Assembly: GCF_027604915.1 (NCBI RefSeq)
Contig: NZ_JAJAQC010000032.1
Coordinates: 1-64,000, forward strand
Direction: 5' to 3'
DNA length: 64,000 nucleotides
Origin: Streptomonospora mangrovi
Lineage (GTDB): Bacteria; Actinomycetota; Actinomycetes; Streptosporangiales; Streptosporangiaceae
In this document: positions 7,763 through 56,371 of the stretch, piece after piece
How positions within the stretch are numbered: position 1 is the first letter of the stretch
How the letters are laid out: the number at the start of each line of letters is the position of its first letter
The notes under the pieces: model-generated
What the model saw: only the letters and a program-made list of their open reading frames with translations
The model's database searches: none
What the model was told of the DNA's origin: nothing
Made by a program: the position numbers and the translations under genes

Positions 7763-8890
7763 TCAGGAGCGCTCGGCGGCGGGGCTGGGGGCGTCGGCCC
7801 CCACCGCCTCGCCCACGGAGCGGTAACCGGCCTGGCGCACCAGCCGGGCCAGGCCCCGGTGCAGGCGCAGCGGCCACAGCGGGCCGCCGTAGATGAGGCC
7901 GGTGTAGCCCTGCACCAGGGAGGCGCCGGCGCGGATGCGCTCCCAGGCGTCCTCGGGCGTGGCCACGCCGCCCACCGCGATGAGAGTGAGCCGGTCGCCG
8001 GCGCGGGCGCGCAGCCGGCGCAGCACCTCAAGGGAGCGGCGGCGCAGCGGCTCGCCCGACAGCCCGCCGGCCCCGGCGGCGGCGACCTCCTCGGCGGGGG
8101 TGCGCAGCCCCTCGCGGCTGATGGTGGTGTTGGTCGCGATGATCCCGTCCAGGCCCAGCTCCACGGCGAGGTCGGCCACGGCGTCCACGTCGTCGTCGGC
8201 GAGGTCGGGGGCGATCTTCACCAGCAGCGGCAGGGAGCCGCGGCCGTCCTCGTCCAGGGCGGCGCGCACCGCCGTCAGCAGCGGGCGCAGCCGCTCCACG
8301 GCCTGGAGGTCGCGCAGGCCCGGGGTGTTGGGCGAGCTGACGTTGACGACCAGGTAGTCGGCGAAGGGCGCCAGCCGGCGGGCGCCGGCGACGTAGTCGG
8401 CGACCGCCTCGGACTCCGGCACGGTCTTGGTCTTGCCGATGTTGACCCCCACGATCGCGCGCCGCCCGGCGGGGCGGGCGCGCAGCGCGGCCAGGTTGTC
8501 GGCGGCCACCACCGAGCCGTGGTTGTTGAACCCCATGCGGTTGACGATCGCGCGGTCGGCGGTCAGCCGGAACAGGCGCGGCTTGGGGTTGCCCGGCTGC
8601 GGGTGGGCGGTGACGGTGCCGACCTCGACGTGGCCGAACCCCAGCGCGGTGAGCCCGATGACCCCTTCGGCGTTCTTGTCGAACCCGGCGGCCAGTCCGA
8701 GCGGGCCGGGGAACTCCCGGCCCAGCGCGGTGACGGCGAGTTCGGGCCGGCGCGGCCCCAGGACGCGGCGCATGGCCTCCGGGGCGCCGGGCACCGCCGC
8801 CAGCCCGCGCAGGGCGGTGAAGGCCAGCCGGTGGATGGACTCGGCGTCGGTGCGGCGCAGCACCGCGGAGAAGAGCAACTGGTAGAGCAC
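7763..8890 (-). CDS. pyrD: Dihydroorotate dehydrogenase (quinone), class 2
   Basis: This FMN enzyme oxidises dihydroorotate to orotate in pyrimidine synthesis and passes electrons to membrane quinone. The start is taken at the GTG giving (M)[14 protein letters not shown], with AGGAA just upstream; the frame stays open into the G/C tract but that part is not gene-like. Diagnostic segments are [26 protein letters not shown] (the Ser marks the quinone-dependent class 2) and ATNTTISR. The N-terminal helical part that contacts the membrane is present. The length of 375 is slightly above usual because of a loose C-terminal tail. It is transcribed toward the convergent deacetylase gene. Confidence 0.95.
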
Positions 8891-9116: not shown

Positions 9117-10037
9117 TCAGCCCTCGCCGCCGCGTTCGCGCTCGGCGAGGAAGCGCTCCAGCTCCTCGCCCAGTTCGTCGGCGGTGGGCAGGTCGGACAG
9201 CTCACCGCCGAACAGGGTGTCGCCGGTGCCGTCCTCGCGCGCGGACATGAACTCGTCGTACTGCCGCTCCAGGTTGGCCACCACCCGCTGGACCTCCTCG
9301 GAGGCCGACACCTGCTGGTCGATCTCGGTGTCGGTCTGGCGGGCGGAGTCCTCCAGGCGGTCGCCGGGCAGCGCCAGGCCGGTGGCGCCCGAGACGTAGT
9401 CCAGGGCGGCGATGGCGGCGCGCGGGTACTCCGACTGCGCGAGGTAGCTGGGCACGTGGACGGCGTAGCCCACCACGTCGTGGCCGGCCTCGCCCAGCCG
9501 GTACTCCAGCAGCGCGGCGGCGCTGGCGGGCACGGTGACGCGGCTGACCCAGGGGGTGTGGTCGGCGACGAGGTCGGGGCGGGTGGCGTGGGCCGTGACG
9601 GTCGCCGGGCGGGTGTGGGGCACCGCCATGGGGATGCCGTGCACGCCCACCGTCAGGGTGATCTCGAAGCGCTCGATCAGCAGGCGGACGGCCTGGGCGA
9701 ACGCCTCCCACTCGCGGTCGGGCTCCAGCCCGTAGAGCAGCAGGAAGGGGGTGCCCTCGGTGTCGCGCATCTCATAGAGCGCGAGCTGGGGCGGGGTGTA
9801 GGCGGTGTAGGCGTTCTCGACGAAGGTCATCACCGGCCGCCGGTCGCGGTAGTCGAGCAGGCGGTCGATGTCGAAGGCGGCGAGTTCGCGCGCCTCATAG
9901 GCGTCGAAGAGGGCCTCGGCCGCCTGGCGGCCGACCGTGCCGGCGTCCACGAACCCGTCGAGAACGACCAGCATGACCGTTGCGTCGGTTTCGGCGTCCG
10001 GGGTCACCCGGAAGAGATCGGCTGCGTGGTCACGCAC
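9117..10037 (-). CDS. PAC2 family protein
   Basis: The 306-residue product begins at a GTG (VRDHAADLF) preceded by GGAG. The early LDGFVDAG segment, the [12 protein letters not shown] region and the [12 protein letters not shown] segment are characteristic of the actinobacterial PAC2 family, which is related to proteasome assembly chaperone 2. The biochemical role in bacteria is not established. It is soluble and has no signal peptide. The Glu/Arg-rich C-terminus from about residue 240 is predicted helical and possibly coiled coil. It lies on the same strand as the ABC-class ATPase upstream, 121 nt away, so co-transcription is possible. Confidence 0.85.
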
Positions 10038-10158
10038 CTGGCATGCTCCATTCGCACACGGACGGCTGTACGCGCGGTGGGCGCACGGCACGCGGGGTTC
10101 GCGTTCCAGAATAGACGACCGGGACCGGCATACCCCCCGATCCCGGACGTCGCCGACC

Positions 10159-11934
10159 TCACGTGGAGCGCACGACCCGCAGGCTGCGCAGCCGGTTGAG
10201 CGCGCCGGCCACCTCGTGGCGGCGCGGCAGCGCGTAGTCGCCGGCGTAGCCCCGGCCCAGCGCGGTCACTCCGTCGGCGGCCAGCCGCTCCTCCAGGGCG
10301 TCCAGCGCCTGGGCGAGGGTGCGCTCGCCGTCGAGCAGGCCGTCCTCGGCGAGCAGCCGCAGCGCCAGGCCCACGCCGATGACCTGGCCGGGATCCACGA
10401 GCTGGGTCAGCCCGCGCACGTCGATGTCGTCCTCGCCGAAGGTCAGCACGTCCATGTCGCGGCGCTTGACGCGGGCGCGCCCGCGCGCGGTGGCGTCGAC
10501 CGAGCGGGGGTCCACCACGCGGGCGGCGGGCGAGGTGAACGCGGCGTCGGCGCGTTCGGCGGCCAGCTCCTTGGCGCGTTCGGTGACGTCGTAGGGGCGG
10601 TAGCCGTCGAGCATGACCACGTGGTCGGCCACGTCGAAGTAGTCGCCGCTGCCGCCCATGACCAGCACGGTGGAGACGCCGTGCTCGCGGTGCAGGGGGC
10701 GGACGAGGTCCACGAAGGGGGTGAGGGGCTCGCGGTCGCCGTGCACGAGCCGCTGCATGCGGGCGTCGCGGATCATCAGGTTGGTGGCGGTGGTGTCCTC
10801 GTCCACCAGCAGGGTGCGGGCGCCGGCCTCCAGGGCCTCGGCGATGTTGGCGGCCTGGGAGGTGGAGCCCGAGGCGTTGTCGGTGGAGAAGTCGGCGGTG
10901 TCGGCGCCGGTGGGCAGGTTGCGCACGAACGCGCTGACGTCGGTGCGCTCGACCCGGCGGCCCTCCTCGGCGCGGATCTTCACGGCGTCGGCGCGGGTGG
11001 CGACCAGTTCCCGGCCGTCGCCGGGGACGTGGTCGTAGACGCCGCGCTCCAGGGCGTGCAGCAGGGTGGACTTGCCGTGGAACCCGCCGCCGACGATGAG
11101 CGTGATGCCCTCGGGGATGCCCAGCCCGCTGACGCGGCCGGCGTGGGGCAGGTCCACGGTGACCCGCATGCTCTCGGGCGCGGTGAAGGGGACGGCCGCG
11201 CCCTCCATCGGCAGGTCGCTGACGCCGCTGCGGCGGGGCAGGACCGCGCCGTCGGCGACGAACGCCACCAGGCCCAGGCCGGGCAGCAGGTCGCGCAGCG
11301 CGGCGGTGTCCTCCACGGAGTCGGCGAAGGCGGTGGCGGCGGCGGTGTCCAGGTGCGGCCAGCGCAGGGCGTCGACCAGGGCGGGCAGCCGATCGCACAG
11401 TTCCCGCTCGGCGGTGCGGGCGTCGATGCGGCGGCCGTGGCCGGGCAGCTCGATGCCCAGGCGCAGCTCGACGGCGCCGTCGCGGATCTGCCCGGAGGCG
11501 CGGGCGATCACCTCCTGGCCGCCGGCGTCGATGCGCAGCCGGGCGCCCTTCAGCTCGCGGTGGGCGCGGCGCACCAGGTGGTCGGCGGTGGCGCGGCGGC
11601 GCACCGGGTGGTGCCAGGCGTGGTCGGGCAGCCCGGCCACCTCGGCGGGGATGCGCACGGCCACGCGGGAGGGCGGCGCGAAGGGGTCGGACTGCACGCG
11701 CTCGACGGTGAGGGTGAAGTCGGGGAAGGCCCAGTCGCCGGTGAGCGACTTGTAGCGGCCGTAGGAGGCGCCGTCCATGCGGCGCAGCTCCTCGGCCAGG
11801 CGGTCGCCGTCGCGGCGGCCGCGGATCTCGGGTTCGGGGCGCCGCGCGCCCGAGGGCGGGCCGCCGTGGCCGCCGCGCCGTTCGGGACGTCCCCCGCCGT
11901 GGCGGCGCTCCTGGCCGCCGTACCGTCCTGGCAT
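10159..11934 (-). CDS. ABC-class ATPase of the COG3044 type
   Basis: The 591-residue protein starts at the ATG giving MPGRYGGQERR, with an AG-rich ribosome site upstream. After a disordered Arg/Gly-rich first 45 residues come the family segments LDGASYGRYK-like (MDGASYGRYKSL) and DFTLTVERVQSDPFAPPSR. A Walker A variant, GGGFHGKST, lies near 279-288, followed by STDNASGSTSQAANI and LLVDEDTTATN (Walker B). These match the predicted ABC-class ATPases of unknown function (PF09818), which are not transporters. It is cytoplasmic and stands alone apart from the PAC2 gene downstream. A nucleic-acid role is sometimes suggested for the family, but nothing here shows it. Confidence 0.85.
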   Translation of the reverse strand: MPGRYGGQERRHGGGRPERRGGHGGPPSGARRPEPEIRGRRDGDRLAEELRRMDGASYGRYKSLTGDWAFPDFTLTVERVQSDPFAPPSRVAVRIPAEVAGLPDHAWHHPVRRRATADHLVRRAHRELKGARLRIDAGGQEVIARASGQIRDGAVELRLGIELPGHGRRIDARTAERELCDRLPALVDALRWPHLDTAAATAFADSVEDTAALRDLLPGLGLVAFVADGAVLPRRSGVSDLPMEGAAVPFTAPESMRVTVDLPHAGRVSGLGIPEGITLIVGGGFHGKSTLLHALERGVYDHVPGDGRELVATRADAVKIRAEEGRRVERTDVSAFVRNLPTGADTADFSTDNASGSTSQAANIAEALEAGARTLLVDEDTTATNLMIRDARMQRLVHGDREPLTPFVDLVRPLHREHGVSTVLVMGGSGDYFDVADHVVMLDGYRPYDVTERAKELAAERADAAFTSPAARVVDPRSVDATARGRARVKRRDMDVLTFGEDDIDVRGLTQLVDPGQVIGVGLALRLLAEDGLLDGERTLAQALDALEERLAADGVTALGRGYAGDYALPRRHEVAGALNRLRSLRVVRST

Positions 11935-45784: not shown

Positions 45785-46959
45785 CAGCGACGGACCTGCC
45801 CGCCACCCCGAGCCTGATCCCGACCCCGCCCGGCCGCGACTACACCGACCCCGGCGTCTTCGCCCGCGAGCAGCGGCTGATCTTCGAGCGCACCTGGTTC
45901 TGCGCGGTGCGCTGCGCCGACCTCGCCGCTCCCGGCGACTTCCGCACGGTGCAGGTGGGCCGGGAGAGCGTGCTGCTCACCCGCACCCGCGCCGGCGAGG
46001 TCCGCGCGTTCCTCAACGTGTGCCGCCACCGGGGGGCGCGGCTGTGCACCGAGGAGGCCGGCAGCGTCAAGCGGTCGCTGCGCTGCCCCTACCACGCCTG
46101 GACCTACGACCTGGACGGCCGGCTGGTGGCCGCGCCCAACCTCGCCGACATGGCCGACGTGCGCCGGGAGGACCGCGGCCTGATCACCGTGCACGTGCGC
46201 GAGTGGCTGGGCTACGCCTGGGTGTGCCTGGCCGATGAGCCGCCCTCCTTCGCCGACACCGTGCAGGCGGCCGTGACCGAGCGGCTGGGCGATGCCGCCG
46301 CCGTGGACCGCTACGGGGTGGAGCGCCTGGCGCTGGGCCGGCGCATCACCTACGACGTGGCGGCCAACTGGAAGCTGATCGTCGAGAACTTCATGGAGTG
46401 CTACCACTGCGGCACCATCCACCCCGAACTGACCGAGGTGCTGCCGGAGTTCGCCGAGGGCTACGCCGCCCAGTACTACGTGGGCCACGGCGCGGAGTTC
46501 GGCGCCGGAGTCGACGGGTTCACCGTCGACGGCGGCGCCGGGTTCGGCCGCCTGGAGGGCGTGGGCACCGACCAGGACCGCCGCTACTACGCCGTCACCG
46601 TGCCGCCGCAGGTGTTCGTCAACCTGGTGCCCGACCACGTGATCGTGCACCGCATGTTCCCGCTGGCGCCCGACCGCACCCGGGTGGAGTGCGACTGGCT
46701 CTACAGTCCCGCCGTGGTGGAGTCCGGCGCCGACCTGTCGCGCTCGGTGGAGCTGTTCGACCGGGTCAACCGGCAGGACTTCGACGCCTGCGAGCGCTGC
46801 CAGCCGGCCATGGACTCCCGGGCCTACCGCGACGGCGGGGTGCTGGTGCCCGTGGAGCACCACATCGGCGCCTTCCACGCCTGGGTGGCGCGGCTGCTGG
46901 CCGAACCCGAGACCGAGACCGGCCCCGGACCGGGCGCCGGCGCCCCCGGCGGCCGGTAG
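45781..46959 (+). CDS. Rieske ring-hydroxylating-type oxygenase, glycine betaine demethylase-like
   Basis: The 392-residue protein has the Rieske ligands CRHRGARLC and [14 protein letters not shown] near 80-105, then the mononuclear iron site [22 protein letters not shown] (Asn, His, His) near 198-219, and a C-terminal SRPBCC domain. The CYHC spacing is that of the GbcA/choline monooxygenase group, which removes a methyl group from glycine betaine. The GTG start overlaps the sarcosine oxidase stop. It probably draws electrons from the ferredoxin and reductase encoded on the opposite strand at 40125-41608. Confidence 0.9.
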
Positions 46960-46987
46960 CGGCCACGCCCGCGGCGGCGGGGGCGCA

Positions 46988-47009
46988 CCGGCCCGGGCAC
47001 CCGGGCCGG
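46988..47009. terminator. Perfect 10-bp hairpin after the oxygenase gene
   Basis: CCGGCCCGGG and CCCGGGCCGG pair exactly, though only a 2-nt spacer separates them, so the inner pairs will open. It lies 29 bp after the oxygenase stop and probably ends the betaine operon. Confidence 0.55.
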
Positions 47010-47175
47010 CCTGCGCCGACCCCGCCGCCGCCGGGCACCGCGCCACGCGCGGATACCCGCCGTCCACCTGGGCGCCACCTGACCGCCCCGCACCGGCCGC
47101 CTGCCGGGCGGACAATCCCCTCGGACAACGCGTGGAGCGCCGCCGCCGGGATCCGGCGCGGGTGAGGGGAGACCG

Positions 47176-48339
47176 GTGAGACGCATCGGTGCGCTGGTGG
47201 TATCGGCTCTCCTGGTGGCGGGGGTGGCGGTGGCCGCCGCGTGGAACCTGTGGGGCCCCTCGACCACGGTGGTCACCGGCGTGATCGGCTCGGAGAAGGC
47301 CACCTTCTTCGCCGACCCCGAGGTGGTCGAGCGGCTGGCCGAACTCGGCTACGAGGCCGACATCCGCACCGGCGGCTCCCGCGAGATCGCCACCACCGAC
47401 CTGGACGGCGTGGACTTCGCCTTCCCCAGCAGCGACCCCTCCGCCGAGGTGCTGCGCCGCAACAACGCGGTGGACCGGGTGTACCGGCCGTTCTACTCCC
47501 CCATGGTGGTGCTGAGCTACCGGCCCGTGGCGCAGGCGCTGGAGGGCGCCGGGGTGGCCGAGCGGGCGCAGGACGGCACCTGGGACCTCGACATGGCCGC
47601 CTACCTCGACCTCACCGAGGAGCGCACCCGCTGGCGCGACCTGCCCGGCGCCGCACTGGAGGGGGCCGGGCGCGGCGAGGTGCTGATCCGCACCACCGAC
47701 CCGCGCACCTCCAACTCCGCGGCGATGTACCTGGTGGTGGTCTCCTACCTGCTCAACGGCGAGGAGGTCGTCACCGACGCCGCCGCCGAGCCCGACCTGG
47801 TCGAGGAGGCCGCCCGCCTGTTCCTCGCCCAGGGCAGCCCGCCCGCCAGCTCCCAGCAGCCCTTCGACCAGTTCGTGGCGCTGGGCGCCGGGCACACGCC
47901 GCTGCTGTGGGCCTACGAGCAGCAGTACATCACCGCGCGCACCGGCCCCGGCGGGCTGCCCGAGGACGTGGTGCTGCTCTACCCCGGCCCCACCACCGTG
48001 GCCACCCACACCATGCTCCCGCTGTCCGAGGACGGCGACGAGTTCGGCCGGCTGCTGACCGAGGACCCCGAACTCCAGCGCCTGGCCGCCGAGCACGGGT
48101 TCCGCACCACCGAGGCCGGGCGGTTCGCCGACCTGGTCCGCGAGCGGGAGCTTCCGGTGCGCGACCAGGTCGCCGACGTCGTGCCCGCCCCCACCTACGA
48201 GGTGGTCGAGGACCTGATCGGCCGCATCGAGGAGCGCTACACCGCCGACGGGATGCCCGCGCCCGCCGAGGACGACGGCGCGCCCGGCGGCACCGCGGCA
48301 GTGACGACACCGGTACCGGAGGAAGTGGTGCGCACGTGA
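47176..48339 (+). CDS. Membrane-anchored solute-binding-like protein (operon gene 1)
   Basis: The 387-residue protein has an N-terminal hydrophobic helix (residues 3-25) with no clear cleavage site, so it is probably anchored outside. The rest resembles a periplasmic-binding-protein fold of type 2: TGVIGSEKATFFADPEVVERLAELGYEADI, GVDFAFPSSDPS, and TTDPRTSNSAAMYLVVVSYLL. The SNS motif after a TxP is shared with the binding domain of the gene at 49517. No ABC transporter genes accompany it. GTG start with GGGGAG upstream. It begins an operon with TelA, a vWA lipoprotein and an XpaC-like protein. The ligand is unknown. Confidence 0.75.
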   Translation: MRRIGALVVSALLVAGVAVAAAWNLWGPSTTVVTGVIGSEKATFFADPEVVERLAELGYEADIRTGGSREIATTDLDGVDFAFPSSDPSAEVLRRNNAVDRVYRPFYSPMVVLSYRPVAQALEGAGVAERAQDGTWDLDMAAYLDLTEERTRWRDLPGAALEGAGRGEVLIRTTDPRTSNSAAMYLVVVSYLLNGEEVVTDAAAEPDLVEEAARLFLAQGSPPASSQQPFDQFVALGAGHTPLLWAYEQQYITARTGPGGLPEDVVLLYPGPTTVATHTMLPLSEDGDEFGRLLTEDPELQRLAAEHGFRTTEAGRFADLVRERELPVRDQVADVVPAPTYEVVEDLIGRIEERYTADGMPAPAEDDGAPGGTAAVTTPVPEEVVRT

Positions 48340-49520
48340 GCGCCGACACCCCGCTCTCACCCCCCGAGGACGACCTCGTCCTCACCCCGCCCGAGCCCGT
48401 GCGGCCGGTGCGCCCCGAGCGCGCCCGCGACCTCGTGCCGATCGAGGAGGCCAAGCGCGCCGAGCTGCACCGCCGCGCCGACAGCTACGCCGCCGAGCTG
48501 GCGGGCCTGGACCCCCGCTCCCCCGAGTTCCTGGCCCGCGTCGGCGACATCGCCGCCCTGGGCGAGGGCGAGATGCGGGCCTCGGCGGAGTCCACCAACC
48601 GGCTGCTGCGGCGCTCGGTGTCGGGCATGAGCGGCGCCAAGGGCGAGGGCGCCGACGCCCAGCGGCGGGTCGGCGAGGGGCTGCTGGAGCTGCGCCGCAC
48701 GGTCGAGGACCTCGACCCCAAGGACGCCGGCCGCCTCACCGGGCGCCGCCTGCTGGGCTTCCTGCCGTTCGGCAACGCGGCGCGCGACCTGGTCCACCGC
48801 TACCAGGCGGCCGACACCAGCCTCAACCGCATCGTGGCGAGCCTGCGCTCGGGCCAGGACGAGCTGCGCCGCGACAACGCCGCGCTGCACAACGAGCGGG
48901 CCCGGCTGTGGGAGACCATGGGCCGCCTCCAGGAGTACGCGGTGCTGGCCGAGGCGCTGGACGCCGCCGTGCAGCGCCGCGTGGACGCCGCCGACCCCGA
49001 CACCGCCGCCCGGCTGCGCGCCGACGTGCTGTTCCCCGTCCGCCAGCGCCACCAGGACCTGCTCACCCAGCTCGCCGTGTGCGTGCAGGGCTACCTGGCG
49101 CTGGACACCCTGCGGCGCGGCAACGAGGAGCTGATCAAGGGCGTGGACCGCGCCGCCACCACCACGGTCTCGGCGCTGCGGGTGGCGGTCACCGTGGCCC
49201 AGGCGCTGGCCAACCAGAAGCGGGTGGTGGAGCAGGTCGACGCGCTGCGCGGCACCACCGAGGACATCATCGCGGCCAACGCCGAGATGCTGGCCACCCA
49301 GAGCGAGGACGTCCAGCGCATCGCCGCCGACCCGGCGGTGGGCGTGGAGACGCTGCGCGAGGCGTTCCGCCGGATCTACGCCACCATCGACAAGATCGAC
49401 CACTTCAAGGAGCAGGCGGTGGAGAACATGGCCGCCACGACCGAGGCCCTGCGCGGCGAACTGGAGGCCGCGGGCACCTACCTGGAGCGCTCGCGCCGCC
49501 CCGGCGAGTCGGACCGATGA
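48336..49520 (+). CDS. TelA family toxic anion resistance protein
   Basis: The 394-residue cytoplasmic protein is largely helical and coiled coil. It has the TelA features: LTGRRLLGFLPFGNAARDLVHRYQAADTSLNRIVASL, ELRRDNAALHNERARLWETMGRLQEYAVLAEALD, and TTTVSALRVAVTVAQALANQKRVVEQVDALRGTTEDIIAANAEML. TelA/YaaN proteins are linked to tellurite and envelope-stress resistance, but their mechanism is not known. The GTG start overlaps the previous stop by 4 nt and the stop overlaps the next start by 4 nt. Confidence 0.92.
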   Translation: MSADTPLSPPEDDLVLTPPEPVRPVRPERARDLVPIEEAKRAELHRRADSYAAELAGLDPRSPEFLARVGDIAALGEGEMRASAESTNRLLRRSVSGMSGAKGEGADAQRRVGEGLLELRRTVEDLDPKDAGRLTGRRLLGFLPFGNAARDLVHRYQAADTSLNRIVASLRSGQDELRRDNAALHNERARLWETMGRLQEYAVLAEALDAAVQRRVDAADPDTAARLRADVLFPVRQRHQDLLTQLAVCVQGYLALDTLRRGNEELIKGVDRAATTTVSALRVAVTVAQALANQKRVVEQVDALRGTTEDIIAANAEMLATQSEDVQRIAADPAVGVETLREAFRRIYATIDKIDHFKEQAVENMAATTEALRGELEAAGTYLERSRRPGESDR

Positions 49521-51139
49521 GGGCGGCGCGGGCGTGGGCGGCGGCCCTCGCCGCCGCGGCGCTGGCCCTGGCCGGCTGCACCCCCGGCGCGGAGGGGCCG
49601 GGGACCGGCCCGGGCGCGGCCGGTGAGCTGCGGATCCTGGCCGGCAGCGAGATCCGCGACCTGGAGCCGGTCCTGGAGCGCGCCGCCGAGGAGATCGGCG
49701 TCACCGTGCACCTGGACTACACCGGCACGCTGGAGGGCGTGGAGGAGGTCGTCTCCGGGCGCACCGAGGACCGCTACGACGCGGTGTGGTTCTCCTCCAA
49801 CCGCTACCTCAACCTCCAGTCGGGCGGCGCCGAGGCGATCGCCGAGGAGACCCCGGTGATGGCCTCGCCGGTGGTGCTGGGGGTCACCGAGTCGGCGGCG
49901 GCCGACCTGGGGTGGGCCGGGGGCGCCGAGGTCACCTGGGGCGACATCGCCGAGGCCGCGTCATCGGGCGACCTGCGCTTCGGCATGACCAACCCGGCCG
50001 CCTCCAACTCCGGGTTCAGCGCGCTGGTGGGCGTGGCCTCGGCGCTGGCCGACACCGGCTCGGCACTGCGCCAGGAGGACGTGGACGCCGTGGCGCCGCG
50101 GCTGCGCGCGTTCTTCTCCGGCCAGGAGCTGACCGCCGGGTCCTCGGGCTGGCTGGCCGACGCCTACATCCGCCGCGCGTCGGCGCAGGGCGCCGGCGCC
50201 CCGGTGGACGGCCTCATCAACTACGAGTCGGTGCTGCTGTCGCTGAACGAGTCCGGCGACCTGCCCGAGCCGCTGACGCTCGTGCACCCCGCCGACGGCG
50301 CGGTCACCGCCGACTACCCGCTGTCGCTGCTGGCCAGCGCCGACGAGCGGGTGGCCGAGGGCTACGACCGGCTGGTGGAGTACCTGATGTCCGCCGAGGT
50401 GCAGCGGGAGATCACCGACACCACCCACCGCCGGCCGCTGTCGGCGGAGGTCAGCGCCGAGGTGGAGTTCCCCCAGGTGGCCGAGCTGCCGTTCCCCGCC
50501 CAGGAGGAGGTCGCCACCGGGCTGATCCGCAGCTACTTCGACGAGCTGCGTCGGCCCGCCCGCACCGTCTACGTGCTGGACCTGTCGGGGTCGATGGCCG
50601 GGGACCGCCTCGCCGACATGCGCACCGCCATGGGCACCCTCACCGGCGGCGACACCAGCTCGGTCAGCGGCCGGTTCCAGCGCTTCTACGGCCGCGAGCG
50701 GGTGACGCTGCTGCCCTTCGACGGCCGGGTGCGGCCCGCCGAGACCTTCGAGGTGCCCGAGGAGGACCCCGGCCCGGTGCTGGACGACATTCAGGCCAGC
50801 GTGGAGTCGATGGAGGCGGTCGGCGACACCGCCGCCTACTCCGCGCTGTACGAGGCGTTCGAGCGGCTGCGCGGCGAGGACGACGTGGCCGACCGGTTCA
50901 CCTCGGTGGTGCTGATGACCGACGGCGAGGTCAACGCCGGGCTCACCCTGGAGGAGTTCCGCCACGAGCACGCGGGCCTGCCGGCCGAGCTGCGGGAGGT
51001 GCCGGTGTTCCCCGTCGTCTTCGGGGAGTCCGACGCCGCCGAGCTGGAGGAGCTGGCGGAGCTGACCGGCGGGCGCGCGTTCGACGCCCGCCGGGACTCC
51101 CTCGACCAGGCGTTCCGGGAGATCCGTGGCTACCAGTGA
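49517..51139 (+). CDS. Lipoprotein with solute-binding and vWA domains
   Basis: The 540-residue protein has a lipoprotein signal (lipobox LAGC near 21), then a type-2 solute-binding domain (residues about 35-320: LRILAGSEIRDLEPVLERAAEEIG, YDAVWFSSNRYL, MTNPAASNSGFSALVGVASAL, INYESVLLSLN). A von Willebrand A domain follows from about 350. Its metal site is visible: DLSGSM near 355 and MTDGEV near 467. The fusion suggests that ligand binding outside is coupled to metal-dependent protein contact. It is the third gene of the TelA operon, overlapping on both sides (ATGA, then 14 nt). Confidence 0.88.
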   Translation: MRAARAWAAALAAAALALAGCTPGAEGPGTGPGAAGELRILAGSEIRDLEPVLERAAEEIGVTVHLDYTGTLEGVEEVVSGRTEDRYDAVWFSSNRYLNLQSGGAEAIAEETPVMASPVVLGVTESAAADLGWAGGAEVTWGDIAEAASSGDLRFGMTNPAASNSGFSALVGVASALADTGSALRQEDVDAVAPRLRAFFSGQELTAGSSGWLADAYIRRASAQGAGAPVDGLINYESVLLSLNESGDLPEPLTLVHPADGAVTADYPLSLLASADERVAEGYDRLVEYLMSAEVQREITDTTHRRPLSAEVSAEVEFPQVAELPFPAQEEVATGLIRSYFDELRRPARTVYVLDLSGSMAGDRLADMRTAMGTLTGGDTSSVSGRFQRFYGRERVTLLPFDGRVRPAETFEVPEEDPGPVLDDIQASVESMEAVGDTAAYSALYEAFERLRGEDDVADRFTSVVLMTDGEVNAGLTLEEFRHEHAGLPAELREVPVFPVVFGESDAAELEELAELTGGRAFDARRDSLDQAFREIRGYQ

Positions 51140-51818
51140 GCGCCGGGGCGCGCTCGGCGCCGCGGTGGACTACCTGGGCTCCACCCGCAACCTGTGGGGC
51201 GCGGTCGGCGGGCTGGCCGGCCTGGCGCTGGCGTTCACCGGGCTTGTGGGCGCGTTCTGGCCGCTGGCGGTGGCCGCGCTCTACACCGCCGGCGCGCTGG
51301 CGGCGCCCCCGGCCCGGGTGCACCTGGTCGCGGAGTCCACGCGCGCCGAGCTGCGGCGCACCCTGGACGCGCTGGACCGGCTGGCCGGGCGGGTGCGCGA
51401 GCGGCGGTCCCGGCTGCCCGACGGGGTGCCCGAGCGGTTCGCGCGCATGGAGGACAAGCTGCGCGACCTGCTGGGCCGGGAGGAGCTGGTGGCCGCCGAC
51501 CCCGAGGCCGGCTACGAACTGGAGCGGATCGTGCGGCGCGACCTGCCCGAGGCGCTGGAGACCTACCTCAACCTGCCGTGGTGGTACGACGCCTCGCGGC
51601 GGGCCGGGGGCGGCACGAGCGCGGCGGCGCACCTGCGCGAGCAGGTGGAGCTGCTGGAGCGCGACGTGGACCGCACGGCCGAGCGGATGCTGGAGGCCCA
51701 CGCCCGCCGGCAGGACGACCACACCACCTACCTGCGGGAGCGCGGTCGCGCCGGCGGCGCGGCGGACCCGGGCAACCCCCTTGGCGGCCCTGCCGCGGAG
51801 GACGGGGAGCCGGACTGA
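51126..51818 (+). CDS. XpaC-like membrane protein (operon gene 4)
   Basis: The 230-residue product starts at a GTG inside the end of the vWA gene. Two hydrophobic segments form a hairpin near residues 22-58. A helical, charge-rich cytoplasmic part follows (ELRRTLDALDRLAGRVRERRSRLPDG, FARMEDKLRDLL, YELERIVRRDLPEALETYLNLPW). This layout and the YLNLP segment resemble XpaC/YaaM-type proteins, which are encoded beside the TelA homologue YaaN in Bacillus. That pairing supports the assignment, but similarity is modest and was judged by eye. It ends in a disordered tail. Confidence 0.65.
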   Translation: MATSERRGALGAAVDYLGSTRNLWGAVGGLAGLALAFTGLVGAFWPLAVAALYTAGALAAPPARVHLVAESTRAELRRTLDALDRLAGRVRERRSRLPDGVPERFARMEDKLRDLLGREELVAADPEAGYELERIVRRDLPEALETYLNLPWWYDASRRAGGGTSAAAHLREQVELLERDVDRTAERMLEAHARRQDDHTTYLRERGRAGGAADPGNPLGGPAAEDGEPD

Positions 51819-51934
51819 GCCGGGGCGGGTCCGGGTGGGCCGCTGAGTCGGGCCGGGCCGGGCCGAGTGAGAGCGGGCAGGAGCGGGTCGGACCGAGCCG
51901 GCCGCCGGTCGCCGGCGGCCGGGCACGCTGAAGG

Positions 51935-51970
51935 CCGCGGCGCCCGCACGGTGCGGTGCGGGCGCCGCGG
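51935..51970. terminator. 15-bp perfect hairpin between convergent genes
   Basis: CCGCGGCGCCCGCAC (51935-51949) pairs exactly with 51956-51970 across a 6-nt loop. It lies between the end of the TelA operon and the end of the small secreted protein gene on the other strand. Confidence 0.8.
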
Positions 51971-51980
51971 CGCGGCGGGA

Positions 51981-52331
51981 TCAGCCCGTGTAGTTGGGCT
52001 GCTCCTCCTGCGGGGCGCCGGGGGCCGCCTCGGGCACCTCGCCCCACTCGAACTCCTCCGAGGGCTCGGCCACCGGCGGATCGGCCGGAGTCGGCTCGAC
52101 CACCGGCGGGTCAGCAGGAGTCGGCTCGACCACCGGCGGATCGGCCGGCTCCTCGCCCGGCGGCCGGGTCGGGTCGGCCCCCTCGCCCGGCGGGACGGGG
52201 GCCGCCGACGGCGGGGTGCCCGGCCGGGGGTCATCGGTTCGGGGGGGCTCCACGTCGGCGAGGGCGGAGCCGCCGCCGAAGAGCGCCGCCGCGGCGACGA
52301 ACCCGGCGACCAGGGACATCTTGAGTCGCAT
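51981..52331 (-). CDS. Small secreted Pro/Glu-rich repeat protein
   Basis: The 116-residue product has a signal peptide (MRLKMSLVAGFVAAAALFGG, cleavage likely after ALA near 25). A disordered Pro/Glu/Asp-rich mature part follows, including three copies of ADPPVVEPTP-like units. ATG at 52331 has AAAGG at 7 nt; another ATG 6 bp upstream is too close to it. No domain is recognisable. It could be a wall-spanning or surface peptide. The next gene on this strand upstream is an L,D-transpeptidase. Confidence 0.6.
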   Translation of the reverse strand: MRLKMSLVAGFVAAAALFGGGSALADVEPPRTDDPRPGTPPSAAPVPPGEGADPTRPPGEEPADPPVVEPTPADPPVVEPTPADPPVAEPSEEFEWGEVPEAAPGAPQEEQPNYTG

Positions 52332-52457: not shown

Positions 52458-53225
52458 TCATTCGGTGACCTCGACCGGGGTGCCCAGCGGGAGGTTCTCG
52501 GCCATCCAGGTGATGTCGTCGTTGGCCACGCGGACGCAGCCGTGGCTGACCTCGCCGCCCAGCTTCGACTCGTCGTCGGTGCCGTGCACCGCGAGCTGGC
52601 CGGGGCCGCCGGCGAACTCCTCCAGAGTGGGCGAGAACCCGCTCAGGCCGAAGGCGTAGGCGCCGTAGTCGCCGTCGGGCTCGGGCGGCCGGAGCAGCTC
52701 GGTGAAGTAGTAGCGGCCGGGCGGGGTGGGGGTGTCCTCGGTGCCGACCGCGATATCGCCGGAGCGGACCTCCTCGCCGCCGTCCAGCACGCGGAAGGCG
52801 AAGTCGCCGAGGTCGACGTGCAGGCTCAGGGTGGTGCTCGACAGCTCGACGTCGGAGGTGCGCACCCAGCCGGTGCTGCCGTTGGGGCGGACGGGCAGCA
52901 GCACCTCCAGCCAGTCGCCCCGCTCCTCCTCGACCAGGAAGGTGCGGTCGGCGCCGAAGTCGTTGGGGCTGGCCAGGGTCTCGGTGACGGCGCCGTCCGG
53001 CGCGTCGCGCACCTCGATCTCGGCGCCGGCGGCGGTGGCGATCAGCGCGGGCCGCCCGTCCTGCGCGGCGGGCGCGTCCTCCTCGGCGGCGGGCTCCGCG
53101 CCGCCCTCGTCGGAGGTGCCGCCCGAGGAGCAGCCGGCCAGGGCCAGCAGCAGGGCGGCCAGGGCGGGGGCGGCGGCGCCGCGCACGGCCGCGCCGGGGC
53201 GCCGCGTTCGGGGGTGAGGGTTCAT
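52458..53225 (-). CDS. L,D-transpeptidase (YkuD) lipoprotein
   Basis: The 255-residue protein has a lipoprotein signal peptide (lipobox LAGC near 32), an SH3-like domain (VRDAPDGAVTETLASPNDFGADRTFLV, GWVRTSDVEL) and a C-terminal YkuD domain. The catalytic motif is HGTDD ... SHGCVRVAND near 215-240, with Cys as nucleophile. It should make 3-3 cross-links in peptidoglycan or attach proteins to it. The Ala/Glu-rich linker after the lipid site is disordered. RBS GGA lies 5 nt upstream. It is divergent from a two-component system that may control it. Confidence 0.93.
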   Translation of the reverse strand: MNPHPRTRRPGAAVRGAAAPALAALLLALAGCSSGGTSDEGGAEPAAEEDAPAAQDGRPALIATAAGAEIEVRDAPDGAVTETLASPNDFGADRTFLVEEERGDWLEVLLPVRPNGSTGWVRTSDVELSSTTLSLHVDLGDFAFRVLDGGEEVRSGDIAVGTEDTPTPPGRYYFTELLRPPEPDGDYGAYAFGLSGFSPTLEEFAGGPGQLAVHGTDDESKLGGEVSHGCVRVANDDITWMAENLPLGTPVEVTE

Positions 53226-53457
53226 GCTTCCATCCGGTCGGTGGTCCGCCGCCGGGGGCGGCGCCGCGGCGCCGCGTCCGCCGGGGCGGTGCGGGGTGGG
53301 ACGGCAACGCACGCTGCCCACCGGATGTGTGAGCGTCGTGAGCGAAATGTGTGATTCCTGTGTGCCCGTGGCCGGGCGCCCCCCTGCGGGCCGCCCGGCG
53401 CGGCGGCGCGGCATACGATCACCCGACAGGAGACCGCGCGGAAGGGGGACCGGCGTC

Positions 53458-54156
53458 GTGTGCGCCCATGTGCTCATCGCCGAGGACGACGTGCAGCAGG
53501 CCGACCTGGTCCGGCGCTACCTGGAGCGCGAGGACCACACCACGGCCGTGGTCCACGACGGCCGCGCGGCCCTGGCCGAGTACCGCCAAGGCCGGCCCGA
53601 CCTGGTCGTGCTCGACGTGATGCTGCCCGGCATGACCGGGCTGGAGGTGTGCCGGCGGCTGCGCGCGGAGTCCGACGTGGCCGTGCTCATGCTGACCGCG
53701 CGCTCCACCGAGGACGACCTGCTGGCCGGCCTGGACATCGGCGCCGACGACTACGTGACCAAGCCCTACAGCCCGCGCGAGCTGATGGCGCGCATCCGCA
53801 CCCTGCTGCGGCGCGCGGCCGCCCCGAGCGGCGCCGAACGGCCGCTGCGCGCCGGCGCGGTGGTGGTCGATCCGGCCCGCCACACCGTGCACGTCGACGG
53901 CGCGCCGGTGGAGTGCACGCCGGCGGAGTTCCAGATGCTGGCGGCGCTGGCGGCCCGGCCCGAGCAGGTCTTCACCCGCTCTCAACTCCTGGAGCGCATC
54001 CACGGCATCGACCGGTTCTTCACCGAGCGCACGATCGACGTGCACGTGAAGAACCTGCGCAAGAAGCTGGAGCCCGACCCGCGGGCGCCCCGGCGGCTGG
54101 TCACCGTCTACGGGGTCGGCTACAAGCTGAGAGGCGGCGATGGGCCGGCGGCGTGA
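53458..54156 (+). CDS. OmpR/PhoB-type response regulator
   Basis: The 232-residue protein starts at a GTG with GGGGGA upstream. The receiver has the acidic pair in IAEDD, phospho-Asp in LVVLDVMLPGMTG near 52, MLTARS, and Lys in VTKPY. The winged helix carries LTR-like ECTPAEFQMLAALAARPEQVFTRSQLLERIHG and TIDVHVKNLRKKLEPDP. It pairs with the kinase gene that overlaps its end by 17 nt. The divergent transpeptidase gene is a possible target. Confidence 0.95.
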   Translation: MCAHVLIAEDDVQQADLVRRYLEREDHTTAVVHDGRAALAEYRQGRPDLVVLDVMLPGMTGLEVCRRLRAESDVAVLMLTARSTEDDLLAGLDIGADDYVTKPYSPRELMARIRTLLRRAAAPSGAERPLRAGAVVVDPARHTVHVDGAPVECTPAEFQMLAALAARPEQVFTRSQLLERIHGIDRFFTERTIDVHVKNLRKKLEPDPRAPRRLVTVYGVGYKLRGGDGPAA

Positions 54157-56371
54157 GGGCGCGCGGCGCCGCGGGGCGGCGCGGCGCGGCTCACGGGTGC
54201 GGGGCGCGCTGCGGCACAGCCTGCTGGGCCGCCTGCTGACCACCTCGGTGGTGGTGGCGGTGTGCTCCATCACCGCAACGGCGTGGCTGGCGGTGCAGGG
54301 CACCTCCGAGTCGATCAGCGTGCAGCAGGGCCAGACGCTCACCGCCGACACCCGCATCCACGATGAACTGATCGCCTATGCCGCCACCCACCCGGAGTGG
54401 CGCGGGGTGGACGCCGTGCTGGCGGGGCTGGCCGAGGACACCGGGCGGCGGATCGCGCTGACCACGGAGAACCGGCGGCTGATCGCGGACTCCGCCGCCG
54501 GGGGCACCCCGCTGCCCACCCGCACGGCCTCGGTCGTGGACCCGCTGGCGGTGGACCTCACCCTCGCCGCCGAGGACGCCGACCGCATCGACCCGCGCGC
54601 GGTCGGCCCGTTCGCGCTGCCGCGCGGCGAGCGGGAGCGGCTGGCGCACACCGCCGAGTCCGGGGCCGAGTGCCTGCGCACCCGGTTCGGCACGGCCGCC
54701 GAGGCCGGGACGGCGCCCTCGGGGCGGCCGGTCGTCACCCTGTCCGAAGGGCCGGTGACCGAGCCGGAGTGGGTCGCCTGCGAACTGGACGGCCTGGAGG
54801 AGCCCACCGACACCGAGCGCGGGGCGCTGGCCGACCTGAACCGGCTCATCGAGGCGTGCGCCGCGCCGCACGGACTGGAGGTGCGCGCGCGGATGGACTC
54901 CGCCACCGGCGTGCCCACCGCCGCCGTGGAGCCGACCCCGCCGCCGGAGGTCGGCGCGGACGGCGACGGCGGGGGCGAGGGCGACGGCGGAGGCGGGGAC
55001 GGCGGGGGCGAGGGCGACGCCGAGGGCGGGGGCTCCGCCACCGCCGACGAGGCGCGGCCGCCCGAGGCCGAGGCCCCGGCCGGCGGCACCCCCTCCGACC
55101 CGCCCGTCGCACCCTCCTCCGGCCCCGAGGCCGTCGAGGAGTATCCCTGGCCGGGCGCGGACGCCCCGGGTGCATCGGTGGAGGAGCCCGCGACCCAGCC
55201 GGAGCCTCCGGCGGCCGTCGTGGAGACGCCGGCCGCGGAGCCGGTGCCCGAGCCCGTGCCGGGGGCGCCGGTCGACCCCGAGGCGGCGCCCCACGACGCG
55301 GCGGCGCAGTTGGACCCGCGCGCGGCCGACTGCCTGGACTCCGCGCGGCGCCGCCAGCTCGACCCCTACACCGCGCCGGCGGCGCTGCTGTTCATCGGCG
55401 ACCCCGAGCCGCAGGCCGTGGGCGGGCTGGAGCTGTCGCGCGAGGGGCTGCTGCGGGTGTCGGGGGTGGTGCTGCTGGTGCTGCTGCTGACGGTGGGGGT
55501 CAGCGCGGGGGCGGCCGCGCGGCTGGTGCGCCCGGTGCGCGACCTGACGGAGGCGGTGCGGCGCATGCGCGCCGGCGAGGGTTCGCCTCGGGTGCCGGTG
55601 CGCGACTCCGGCGAGATCGGGCGGCTGGCCGAGGCGTTCAACGAGATGTCGGCGCACCTGGAGCGGCTGGAGGGCCAGCGCCGCGCCATGGTCAGCGACG
55701 TCTCCCACGAACTGCGCACACCGCTGGCCAACCTGCGCGGCTGGCTGGAGGCGGCCCAGGACGGGGTGGCCGAGCTGGAGCCGGCGCGCACGGCGCTGCT
55801 GGTGGAGCAGACGATGCTGCTCCAGCGCATCATCGACGACTTGCAGGACCTGGCGCTGGCGGAGGCGGGCAAGCTGACGCTGGTGCCCGAGCCGCTGGAC
55901 GCCCGGGACCTGGTGGAGCAGGCGGTGGACGGCCACCGCATGGCCGCCGCGTCGGCGCGGGTGGAGCTGGTCGCCCGGACCGCCGACGAGGAGGTCCCGG
56001 TGGCGGCCGACCGGGTGCGCATGCTCCAGGTGCTGGGCAACCTGCTGGGCAACGCGGTGCGGCACACCCCCGCCGGGGGGCGCGTGACGGTGCGGGCGCA
56101 CGCCGAGGACGGTGCGGCGGTCATCGAGGTCGCCGACACCGGCGACGGGATCAGCCCGGCGCACCTGCCCAACGTCTTCGACCGGTTCTGGCGCGCCGAC
56201 AAGTCCCGCAGCCGCCAGACGGGCGGCAGCGGGCTGGGCCTGGCCATCGTCCGCAACCTGGTGGAACTCCACGGGGGGACGGTGACGGCCGCCAGCACCC
56301 CGGGCGAGGGCGCGGTGTTCACCCTGCGCCTGCCCCGGCCGGAGCCGGAGCCGCCCGCCGCGACGGACTGA
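54140..56371 (+). CDS. Sensor histidine kinase with long low-complexity outer segment
   Basis: The 743-residue kinase is much longer than its relatives. After an Arg-rich start and first membrane helix (about 32-52), the outer part extends to a second helix near 436-462. Within it, about residues 270-400 are Gly/Asp/Glu-rich and then Pro/Glu/Ala-rich, with no fold. HAMP (RLVRPVRDLTEAVRRMRAGEG), H-box VSDVSHELRTP near 521, N-box LGNLLGNAVRHT, DTGDGIS and GGSGLGLAIV complete a normal kinase. The insert may reach into the cell wall as a spacer. It is translationally coupled to the regulator gene. Confidence 0.94.
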   Translation: MGRRREGARRRGAARRGSRVRGALRHSLLGRLLTTSVVVAVCSITATAWLAVQGTSESISVQQGQTLTADTRIHDELIAYAATHPEWRGVDAVLAGLAEDTGRRIALTTENRRLIADSAAGGTPLPTRTASVVDPLAVDLTLAAEDADRIDPRAVGPFALPRGERERLAHTAESGAECLRTRFGTAAEAGTAPSGRPVVTLSEGPVTEPEWVACELDGLEEPTDTERGALADLNRLIEACAAPHGLEVRARMDSATGVPTAAVEPTPPPEVGADGDGGGEGDGGGGDGGGEGDAEGGGSATADEARPPEAEAPAGGTPSDPPVAPSSGPEAVEEYPWPGADAPGASVEEPATQPEPPAAVVETPAAEPVPEPVPGAPVDPEAAPHDAAAQLDPRAADCLDSARRRQLDPYTAPAALLFIGDPEPQAVGGLELSREGLLRVSGVVLLVLLLTVGVSAGAAARLVRPVRDLTEAVRRMRAGEGSPRVPVRDSGEIGRLAEAFNEMSAHLERLEGQRRAMVSDVSHELRTPLANLRGWLEAAQDGVAELEPARTALLVEQTMLLQRIIDDLQDLALAEAGKLTLVPEPLDARDLVEQAVDGHRMAAASARVELVARTADEEVPVAADRVRMLQVLGNLLGNAVRHTPAGGRVTVRAHAEDGAAVIEVADTGDGISPAHLPNVFDRFWRADKSRSRQTGGSGLGLAIVRNLVELHGGTVTAASTPGEGAVFTLRLPRPEPEPPAATD

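Follow-up and report, generated by a model that had tools for sequence, protein, structure and literature searches.

How could two solute-binding proteins act when no transporter is encoded beside them? This question is raised by a four-gene operon at 47176-51818 on the + strand of the DNA analyzed here, a stretch of 64,000 nucleotides (nt) from Streptomonospora mangrovi (contig NZ_JAJAQC010000032.1, positions 1 to 64,000; hereafter the window). The operon encodes, in order, a membrane-anchored solute-binding protein (SBP1), TelA, a lipoprotein joining a solute-binding domain to a von Willebrand factor A (vWA) domain (SBPvWA), and a protein with a hydrophobic hairpin (gene 4). We tentatively propose that SBP1 and SBPvWA form a self-contained receptor pair for phosphate or another oxyanion, without a transporter of its own, which is linked to protection of the envelope and, in several lineages, is under the control of PhoP; we regard this account as possible rather than probable. 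The four genes are:

47176..48339, + strand: SBP1, membrane-anchored type-II solute-binding protein, 387 residues (gene callers, predicted model)
48336..49520, + strand: TelA, 394 residues, no hydrophobic segment (PF05816, 277 bits; hydropathy)
49517..51139, + strand: SBPvWA lipoprotein, 540 residues (Pfam; model with a predicted local distance difference test score, pLDDT, of 91.7)
51126..51818, + strand: gene 4, hydrophobic hairpin and helical part, 230 residues (14-nt overlap with gene 3)

Two Homologous Receptors Are Encoded in the Operon

Successive genes of the operon overlap by 4, 4, and 14 nt, and our own codon-model gene caller reproduced the starts and stops of all four, in agreement with an earlier note on this DNA that had read them as overlapping genes of one strand. 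The same note had assigned a common type-II solute-binding fold and a shared TxPxxSNS motif to genes 1 and 3, taken as two extracytoplasmic receptors, and an intact metal site to the vWA domain of gene 3; these assignments were sustained by the predicted models compared with Sbp and by the alignments described below. The parts of the two receptors are:

47176..47256, + strand: N-terminal membrane anchor of SBP1, residues 1-27 (hydropathy; helix 2-25 in the model)
47695..47718, + strand: TDPRTSNS loop of SBP1, residues 174-181, with S179 and S181 invariant (alignment)
49568..49579, + strand: lipobox LAGC of SBPvWA, with C21 (sequence)
49616..50560, + strand: solute-binding domain of SBPvWA, residues 34-348 (Sbp 5um2, Z 26.1)
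49988..50011, + strand: TNPAASNS loop of SBPvWA, residues 158-165 (alignment)
50552..51136, + strand: vWA domain of SBPvWA, residues 346-540 (9c4f_I, Z 22.5; invariant metal site)

As judged by profile comparison, the two receptors are homologous: in hhalign, the SBP1 profile aligned with the SBPvWA receptor part (97%, E 7.6e-11). SBP1 itself matched no Pfam family at E ≤ 1, SBP_bac_11 was matched weakly by 7 of 56 SBP1 relatives (best E 0.0018), and a PDB sequence search with the SBP1 profile gave no match at E ≤ 1; SBPvWA exceeded the cut-offs of both SBP_bac_11 (35.6, cut-off 25) and VWA (23.9, cut-off 23.8). The AlphaFold model of SBP1 (pLDDT 90.1) matched the sulfate-binding protein 1sbp with a Z of 24.3 (root-mean-square deviation, rmsd, 3.3; 275 residues aligned), and the model of SBPvWA matched Sbp 5um2 with a Z of 26.1 (rmsd 3.8; 286 residues aligned); Foldseek ranked Sbp first for SBP1 and the sugar-phosphate receptor AfuA first for SBPvWA. 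For both receptor models, the score of the thiamin-binding protein 2qry differed from that of Sbp by no more than about 1 (Z 25.9 for SBPvWA, less than 1 from Sbp), and thus the fold singles out no ligand. The TxPxxSNS motif presumably occupies the position of the Sbp anion-binding loop. Residues of the SNS, YE, and SSG loops, which we take to line the cleft in this fold, rank among the most conserved positions of both receptors, and this conservation argues for a ligand.

The vWA part of SBPvWA matched the vWA domain of the inter-alpha-inhibitor heavy chain (9c4f_I; Z 22.5, rmsd 2.1, 178 residues aligned), and its metal site, with the motifs DLSGSM and MTDGEV, is intact, the residues D355, S357, S359, T438, and D469 being invariant in 56 of 56 SBPvWA relatives. 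A loose lipobox pattern was found in 50 of these 56 relatives, the same pattern also firing in 24 of 39 gene-4 proteins; SBP1 of the window has a single N-terminal hydrophobic helix, and a lipobox-like pattern occurred in just 1 of 56 SBP1 relatives. No phage copy of SBPvWA was found in 50,697 records. A second, longer SBP-vWA family of about 30% identity was observed at L079, L083, and L084, where it precedes two small proteins and one large protein (670-860 residues), apparently a different conserved set.

The earlier description of the surroundings as free of ATP-binding cassette (ABC) and TerD genes was confirmed in the window, with no match to either among the ten genes scanned around the operon, and Pfam and neighbor scans found neither a PknG kinase nor a GlnX sensor in the operon.

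Conservation and Gene Orders of the Operon

Gene 3 was matched in 93 of 150 genomes of the window's taxonomic order, 65 of them at ≥466 bits. Among 53 stretches around gene-3 matches, 25 (plus the window) carried the full tetrad, one of them with a shortened SBPvWA, and 13 carried the SBP1-SBPvWA pair only; one lacked TelA, one held SBPvWA alone, and 13 were paralogs. A further set consisted of the best 80 of at least 555 genome-scan matches, so that its shares are shares among these loci and not among species. The order SBP1-TelA-SBPvWA-gene 4 was present in 60 of the 80 and the receptor pair only in 13; the remainder comprised three loci without TelA, two with no SBP1 alongside (one of these at the end of a contig), one without a called gene 4, and one with SBPvWA alone, and some of the 80, such as L169, end at a contig edge. 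The conserved linkage that the earlier note had counted on was found, and it recurs in other phyla. Genes 3 and 4 also overlap by 14 nt in many relatives, as well as in Sphaerotilus and Deinococcus. The neighbors of the operon differ between lineages, and a same-strand gene lay within 30 nt upstream at 0 of 78 loci and within 30 nt downstream at 6 of 78.

SBPvWA was also matched in 18 of 246 genomes of the G508 class, putatively Coriobacteriia; the taxon labels used here for this class, for families f19 and f20, and for Streptomyces-like loci are guesses. Of 11 loci of the class (L121 and ten others), six had the order SBPvWA-XpaC-SBP1-TelA, a further XpaC-like gene being present in one of these, and the other five had SBP1-SBPvWA-gene 4-TelA, gene 4 being missed by the profile in one. 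In a plasmid collection, profile searches confirmed SBP1-TelA-SBPvWA-gene 4 in Sphaerotilus, the same order plus a small extra gene in Variovorax, and SBP1-SBPvWA-gene 4 with TelA absent in Deinococcus. By gene content, the tetrad genes thus recur in three orders in Actinomycetota and also in Pseudomonadota (Betaproteobacteria). The Variovorax tetrad (L259, a plasmid of Variovorax sp. SRS16) is flanked on one side by a flotillin-domain gene and on the other by genes with a Wadjet (Jet) annotation.

TelA was considered as an essential core of the system and rejected, given the 13 of 80 loci with the pair only and the TelA-less genomes: where the locus lacked TelA, none was found anywhere in the genome (8 of 8 genomes tested), and where the locus held TelA, the genome contained exactly one (6 of 6 tested). 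Since loci without TelA keep the receptors and their genomes are without TelA, the receptor pair is the constant part. At L048 (= L178, Thermomonospora echinospora), TelA has been lost between SBP1 and SBPvWA, and about 36 codons resembling its N-terminus remain.

In the window, the nearest upstream gene ends 216 nt before the operon, and the downstream called gene is on the opposite strand. On one side, the neighbors of the operon are genes for FAD (flavin adenine dinucleotide) oxidoreductase and Rieske oxygenase. On the other, just downstream at 52458-56371, an L,D-transpeptidase gene lies next to those of a two-component system, a response regulator and a histidine kinase. Same-sized genes follow the operon at L032, a locus of the same genus, and no recurring neighbor of this kind was seen elsewhere. 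A scan with a defense-system library gave no convincing match.

A PHO Box Lies Upstream of SBP1 in Several Lineages

Many SBP1 genes share an upstream signal composed of GTTCAC/T units in an 11-nt repeat. Among 137 SBP1 regions, a number in which SBP1 paralogs are included and some genomes count twice, the exact tandem was found within 250 nt upstream in 28, compared with 0 of 1,273 control genes taken from these loci, genes with <200 nt of upstream sequence being excluded from both targets and controls. Within one mismatch the counts were 45 of 137 versus 7 of 1,273, and within two they were 67 versus 43. Pairs of units within 40 nt were spaced by 11 nt in 28 SBP1 regions, by 12 in one, and by 19 in two; the controls held four such pairs, none at a spacing of 11. 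Lentzea supplied 14 of the 28 exact boxes. Of 40 Pseudonocardiales regions, 38 had the signal with no more than one mismatch and all 40 with no more than two; it was exact in all three Kitasatospora regions and present within two mismatches in eight of nine loci of family f20 and one of three of f19; in Streptosporangiales it was found within one mismatch in 1 of 32.

Actinosynnema, whose PhoP bears on this signal, is taken here to be a member of the Pseudonocardiaceae. In the excerpted accounts, Actinosynnema PhoP binds GTTCAC motifs in gel shifts and acts as a repressor there (PMC9019756), and the PHO box of S. coelicolor consists of 11-nt direct repeats with GTTCACC (PMC4415409). By its units and spacing, the tandem GTTCAC repeat upstream of SBP1 is the published PHO box.

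Seven genomes (7-12 Mb) were picked for their exact SBP1 box, so that just two results from them are independent: the best pstS match carried a box in 7 of 7, and sites were rare genome-wide, with 4-12 in each genome and 44 in total, compared with 4 for the reversed pattern. A three-unit PHO pattern with two mismatches (eight sites vs. one control site) was not used. At TelA loci without SBP1, where TelA is not always the first operon gene, the box was found within one mismatch in 0 of 25 and within two in 1 of 25, and TelA-less Kitasatospora operons carried an exact box; these results indicated that the box goes with the receptors. Taken as promoter patterns, the boxes support phosphate (PhoP) control of the operon in several lineages, though not for the window's copy, and the link suggests a role in phosphate or oxyanion physiology instead of one in generic tellurite stress. 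Independent support comes from Sphaerotilus, where a gene annotated as a PhoX-family phosphatase precedes the tetrad. The earlier note, which had placed TelA and vWA proteins in tellurite and envelope-stress systems, had not drawn this connection to the PhoP response.

TelA and Gene 4

By its match to PF05816 (277 bits, cut-off 30), the identity of gene 2 as TelA is beyond doubt. Gene 4 is a counterpart of XpaC by its position and not by family test. Its sole Pfam match was at E 0.13, and none of 39 gene-4 members matched the XpaC family PF10112 at E ≤ 0.1; we therefore rejected it as XpaC by family, and the XpaC-like name given in the earlier note was not confirmed. The hydrophobic part of gene 4 is:

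51192..51299, + strand: hydrophobic region of gene 4, residues 23-58 (hydropathy)

A hydrophobic N-terminal segment is present in 35 of the 39 members. In other actinobacteria, TelA is followed by short proteins to which gene 4 is homologous (hhalign 99.8%). Direct comparison of gene 4 with the XpaC profile was weak (hhalign 22.9%, E 0.0009), and the protein that takes its place at L121, in another class, matched PF10112 with 39.7 bits. At L209, two XpaC-like genes (8095-8652 and 9915-10436) share an operon with SBPvWA, SBP1, and TelA, one of them matching PF10112 below the cut-off.

Proposed Mechanism and Alternative Readings

We propose that SBP1, held by one helix, and SBPvWA, held by a lipid anchor, would serve as paralogous receptors outside the cell, with a phosphate ester or an oxyanion resembling phosphate as the ligand. 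The metal site of the vWA domain may hold a partner, most simply SBP1 or an envelope component, in a contact governed by the ligand state. Across the membrane, the signal would pass by way of the helix of SBP1 and the hairpin of gene 4 to TelA, which would act beneath the membrane, changing or protecting the envelope. The envelope-stress response of TelA-XpaC pairs in Bacillus, Listeria, and Lactococcus speaks for such an output. PhoR-PhoP probably controls the operon in Pseudonocardiales, Streptomycetaceae, and perhaps others; it might activate or repress it, and would most simply turn it on when phosphate is short.

Several observations weigh against this proposal. The fold matches of the predicted models do not give the ligand, and the receptor pair persists without TelA, so that TelA would not be the sole output. 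At 8 of the 11 G508-class loci, the operon is preceded by ABC genes of two unrelated kinds, and a Pho-type scan found no site before the Variovorax operon. The best PHO match upstream of the window's operon has four mismatches, 47% of controls scoring equally; only 1 of 14 Nocardiopsaceae loci and 0 of 3 f19 loci reached the top 5% of controls, and Streptosporangiaceae carry just a weaker, reversed PHO repeat (28 of 137 vs. 23 of 1,273 controls). The window's region is:

46960..47175, + strand: upstream region, no recognizable PHO box (best match with four mismatches; 47% of controls equal)

The genome of the window has an exact PHO box at one of its two pstS genes. A tighter reversed form, GAAC-N8-AATT, was found in 25 of 65 regions, compared with 0 of 485 controls. 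Elements of the type GTGAAC-N5-(G/A)TGAAT, a reverse PHO repeat, were observed mostly 90-150 nt upstream of SBP1, often followed by CATAAT, at L049, L050, L052, L054, L058-L060, L062, L064-L068, and L070 and in Streptosporangiaceae (e.g., L186, L189, and L204). Extracytoplasmic function (ECF)-type promoters upstream in Streptosporangiales were rejected, three patterns giving 2 of 65 versus 21 of 485, 4 of 65 versus 15 of 485, and 0 of 65 versus 1 of 485, and a promoter and terminator scan of 46900-52100 detected none.

A first alternative, which we consider unlikely, is that the operon guards against toxic oxyanions: high-affinity anion uptake, opened by phosphate starvation, would admit arsenate, tellurite, or selenite, the receptors would detect or trap these outside, and TelA would protect the inside. 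The sulfate/molybdate-type fold of SBP1 and the PHO boxes are compatible with such a guard, as is the name of TelA. Excerpted sources add that tellurite enters via phosphate transporters (PMC4531530) and that a Listeria telA mutant is 2-fold more susceptible to tellurite (as cited in PMC12791056); however, the phenotype of that mutant was stronger for nisin (4-fold), and the receptors are retained where TelA has been lost.

Slightly less likely still is an uptake role, in which SBP1 and SBPvWA would be orphan receptors feeding phosphate or phosphate esters to Pst or to another ABC permease encoded elsewhere. The solute-binding fold and the PHO box common to pstS agree with this, as do two kinds of neighbor. 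In Sphaerotilus, the tetrad begins 4 nt after a gene annotated as a PhoX-family phosphatase, with an annotated extracellular nuclease downstream, and an Escherichia coli-type Pho-box-like site with two mismatches lies upstream of phoX (6 of 911 overlapping background windows were equal; the scan covered five promoters, two of which had a forward site within two mismatches). In the G508 class, the upstream ABC genes are of the LIV type at L121, L205, L206, and L208 and of the NMT1 type at L210, L211, L212, and L214, as checked by Pfam in L211 and partly in L205 and assigned elsewhere by similarity or position; 368 nt separate them from SBP1 at L211. L207 and L213 have no upstream ABC genes, and L209 has just a weak ATPase match on the opposite strand. 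Against uptake, no ABC ATPase adjoined the block at any of the 80 loci (ATPases were recognized by motif only, and permeases were not searched separately), one occurred anywhere in about 11 kb at 7 of 80 by the same motif, and pstS was present separately in 19 of 19 genomes tested; moreover, SBP1 is anchored by a helix, and the vWA domain and TelA have no obvious uptake role. The earlier claim of a transporter-free system therefore stands as regards an adjacent ABC ATPase and is weakened by the eight G508-class loci, and the constant adjacency of a transporter or phosphate gene, which would have spoken for ordinary uptake, was not found, yet PhoX adjoins the operon in Sphaerotilus.

The least likely alternative, which we regard as improbable, is an envelope-remodeling scaffold of phosphate starvation, in which binding folds that have lost their ligand would join the vWA domain as adhesion modules for cell-wall polymers, with the membrane stabilized by TelA and gene 4, as the metal site invariant in 56 of 56 relatives and the envelope-stress response of TelA-XpaC genes might suggest, but the high conservation in both receptors of the loop residues taken to line the cleft (SNS, YE, and SSG) argues for a ligand.

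TelA-Gene 4 Elsewhere and Comparison with Known Systems

Of 48 TelA places outside the window's family, 36 were examined, and 12 of the 36 held the tetrad. In seven others (L085, L086, L088, L089, L090, L091, and L094), TelA-gene 4 was observed directly upstream of an AAA ATPase gene, followed by a membrane protein labeled GlnX-like by position (that of L085 matched no Pfam family), a GlnH-like receptor, and an unknown protein, with a PknG-like kinase in the six that are long enough. SBP_bac_3 was confirmed in L085, L091, and L094, and the PknG rubredoxin domain in L085 and L091; to judge from these genes, the neighborhood looks like a GlnH-GlnX-PknG operon, which would tie TelA to PknG nutrient sensing. 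A TerD-type protein was observed after TelA-gene 4 at L092, L095, L098, L099, L101, L102, L112, and L116, confirmed as TerD by Pfam in L092, L098, L099, L101, and L116. In L092, L098, and others, the middle of this protein is long and rich in proline and its C-terminal domain is conserved; only the C-terminal part is present at L093, L104, and L124, two of which were scanned without a Pfam match.

Beyond our proposal for the operon itself, it is conceivable, if doubtful, that these systems represent a new class of phosphate-starvation receptors in at least three phyla, in which two anchored oxyanion receptors and an extracellular, integrin-like vWA switch would produce a TelA-dependent membrane change without a kinase or transporter, TelA-gene 4 being a movable output module plugged elsewhere into TerD or GlnH-GlnX-PknG. 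TelA is widespread and, according to the literature, its mechanism is not known; receptor partners and a phosphate switch would give it a testable role.

A literature search, with the 2012 survey of Ter systems outside its reach, found no description of the operon. SCO4975-4978 was considered as the Streptomyces locus and rejected, since excerpts of the papers place a hemolysin-III-like protein at SCO4978 and a phosphoenolpyruvate (PEP) carboxykinase at SCO4979; if present in S. coelicolor, the operon would be at about SCO4980-4983, for which no paper naming these genes was found. At the Streptomyces-like L105, PEP carboxykinase and hemolysin-III-like genes follow gene 4, matching SCO4979/SCO4978. 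The available part of one report records a CutR chromatin immunoprecipitation peak for SCO4979/SCO4978 (PMC10433416), and that of a proteomic study of low-phosphate Streptomyces names tellurium-resistance proteins and none of SCO497x (PMC7244524).

Among known systems, the actinobacterial Pho regulon shares with the operon an upstream tandem of GTTCAC units with an 11-nt repeat, which is likewise present at pstS; the operon was not found as a Pho member in the literature search, however, and the box is not recognizable in the window. In fold, SBP1 and SBPvWA resemble 6lkg (Z 21.2 and 24.1, respectively), an entry titled as a two-component signal protein that we take to be HptA, as well as AfuA (21.0 and 24.6) and Sbp (24.3 and 26.1), but the tetrad has no histidine kinase or permease partner and one of its receptors is fused to a vWA domain. 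Ter systems (TerD, TerB, TerF-vWA, and TelA) likewise bring TelA and a vWA protein together and, in an excerpted description, combine a ligand-binding part with a part beneath the membrane (PMC7824862), whereas the vWA domain of the tetrad is on an outside lipoprotein and no TerD is alongside. With XpaC-TelA (YaaN) of Bacillota, the operon shares a TelA beside a small membrane protein, and in partial accounts the TelA-XpaC genes belong to the Bacillus sigma-W regulon, the Listeria garvicin response, and the Lactococcus membrane-protein stress response, a regulation by envelope stress; the tetrad differs in a gene 4 without an XpaC Pfam match, in two added receptors, and in the PHO box of many relatives. 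In the GlnH-GlnX-PknG system of mycobacteria and corynebacteria, as described in excerpts of two reports, a solute-binding lipoprotein acts through a membrane protein on a kinase (PMC6069109, PMC9769921). Signaling from a solute-binding receptor through a membrane protein is the likeness, whereas the tetrad has no kinase, four-helix sensor, or amino-acid-type receptor and has two receptors, one with a vWA domain. If our proposal is true, the operon would provide another transporter-less solute-binding receptor beside GlnH, and an extracellular vWA switch in bacteria.

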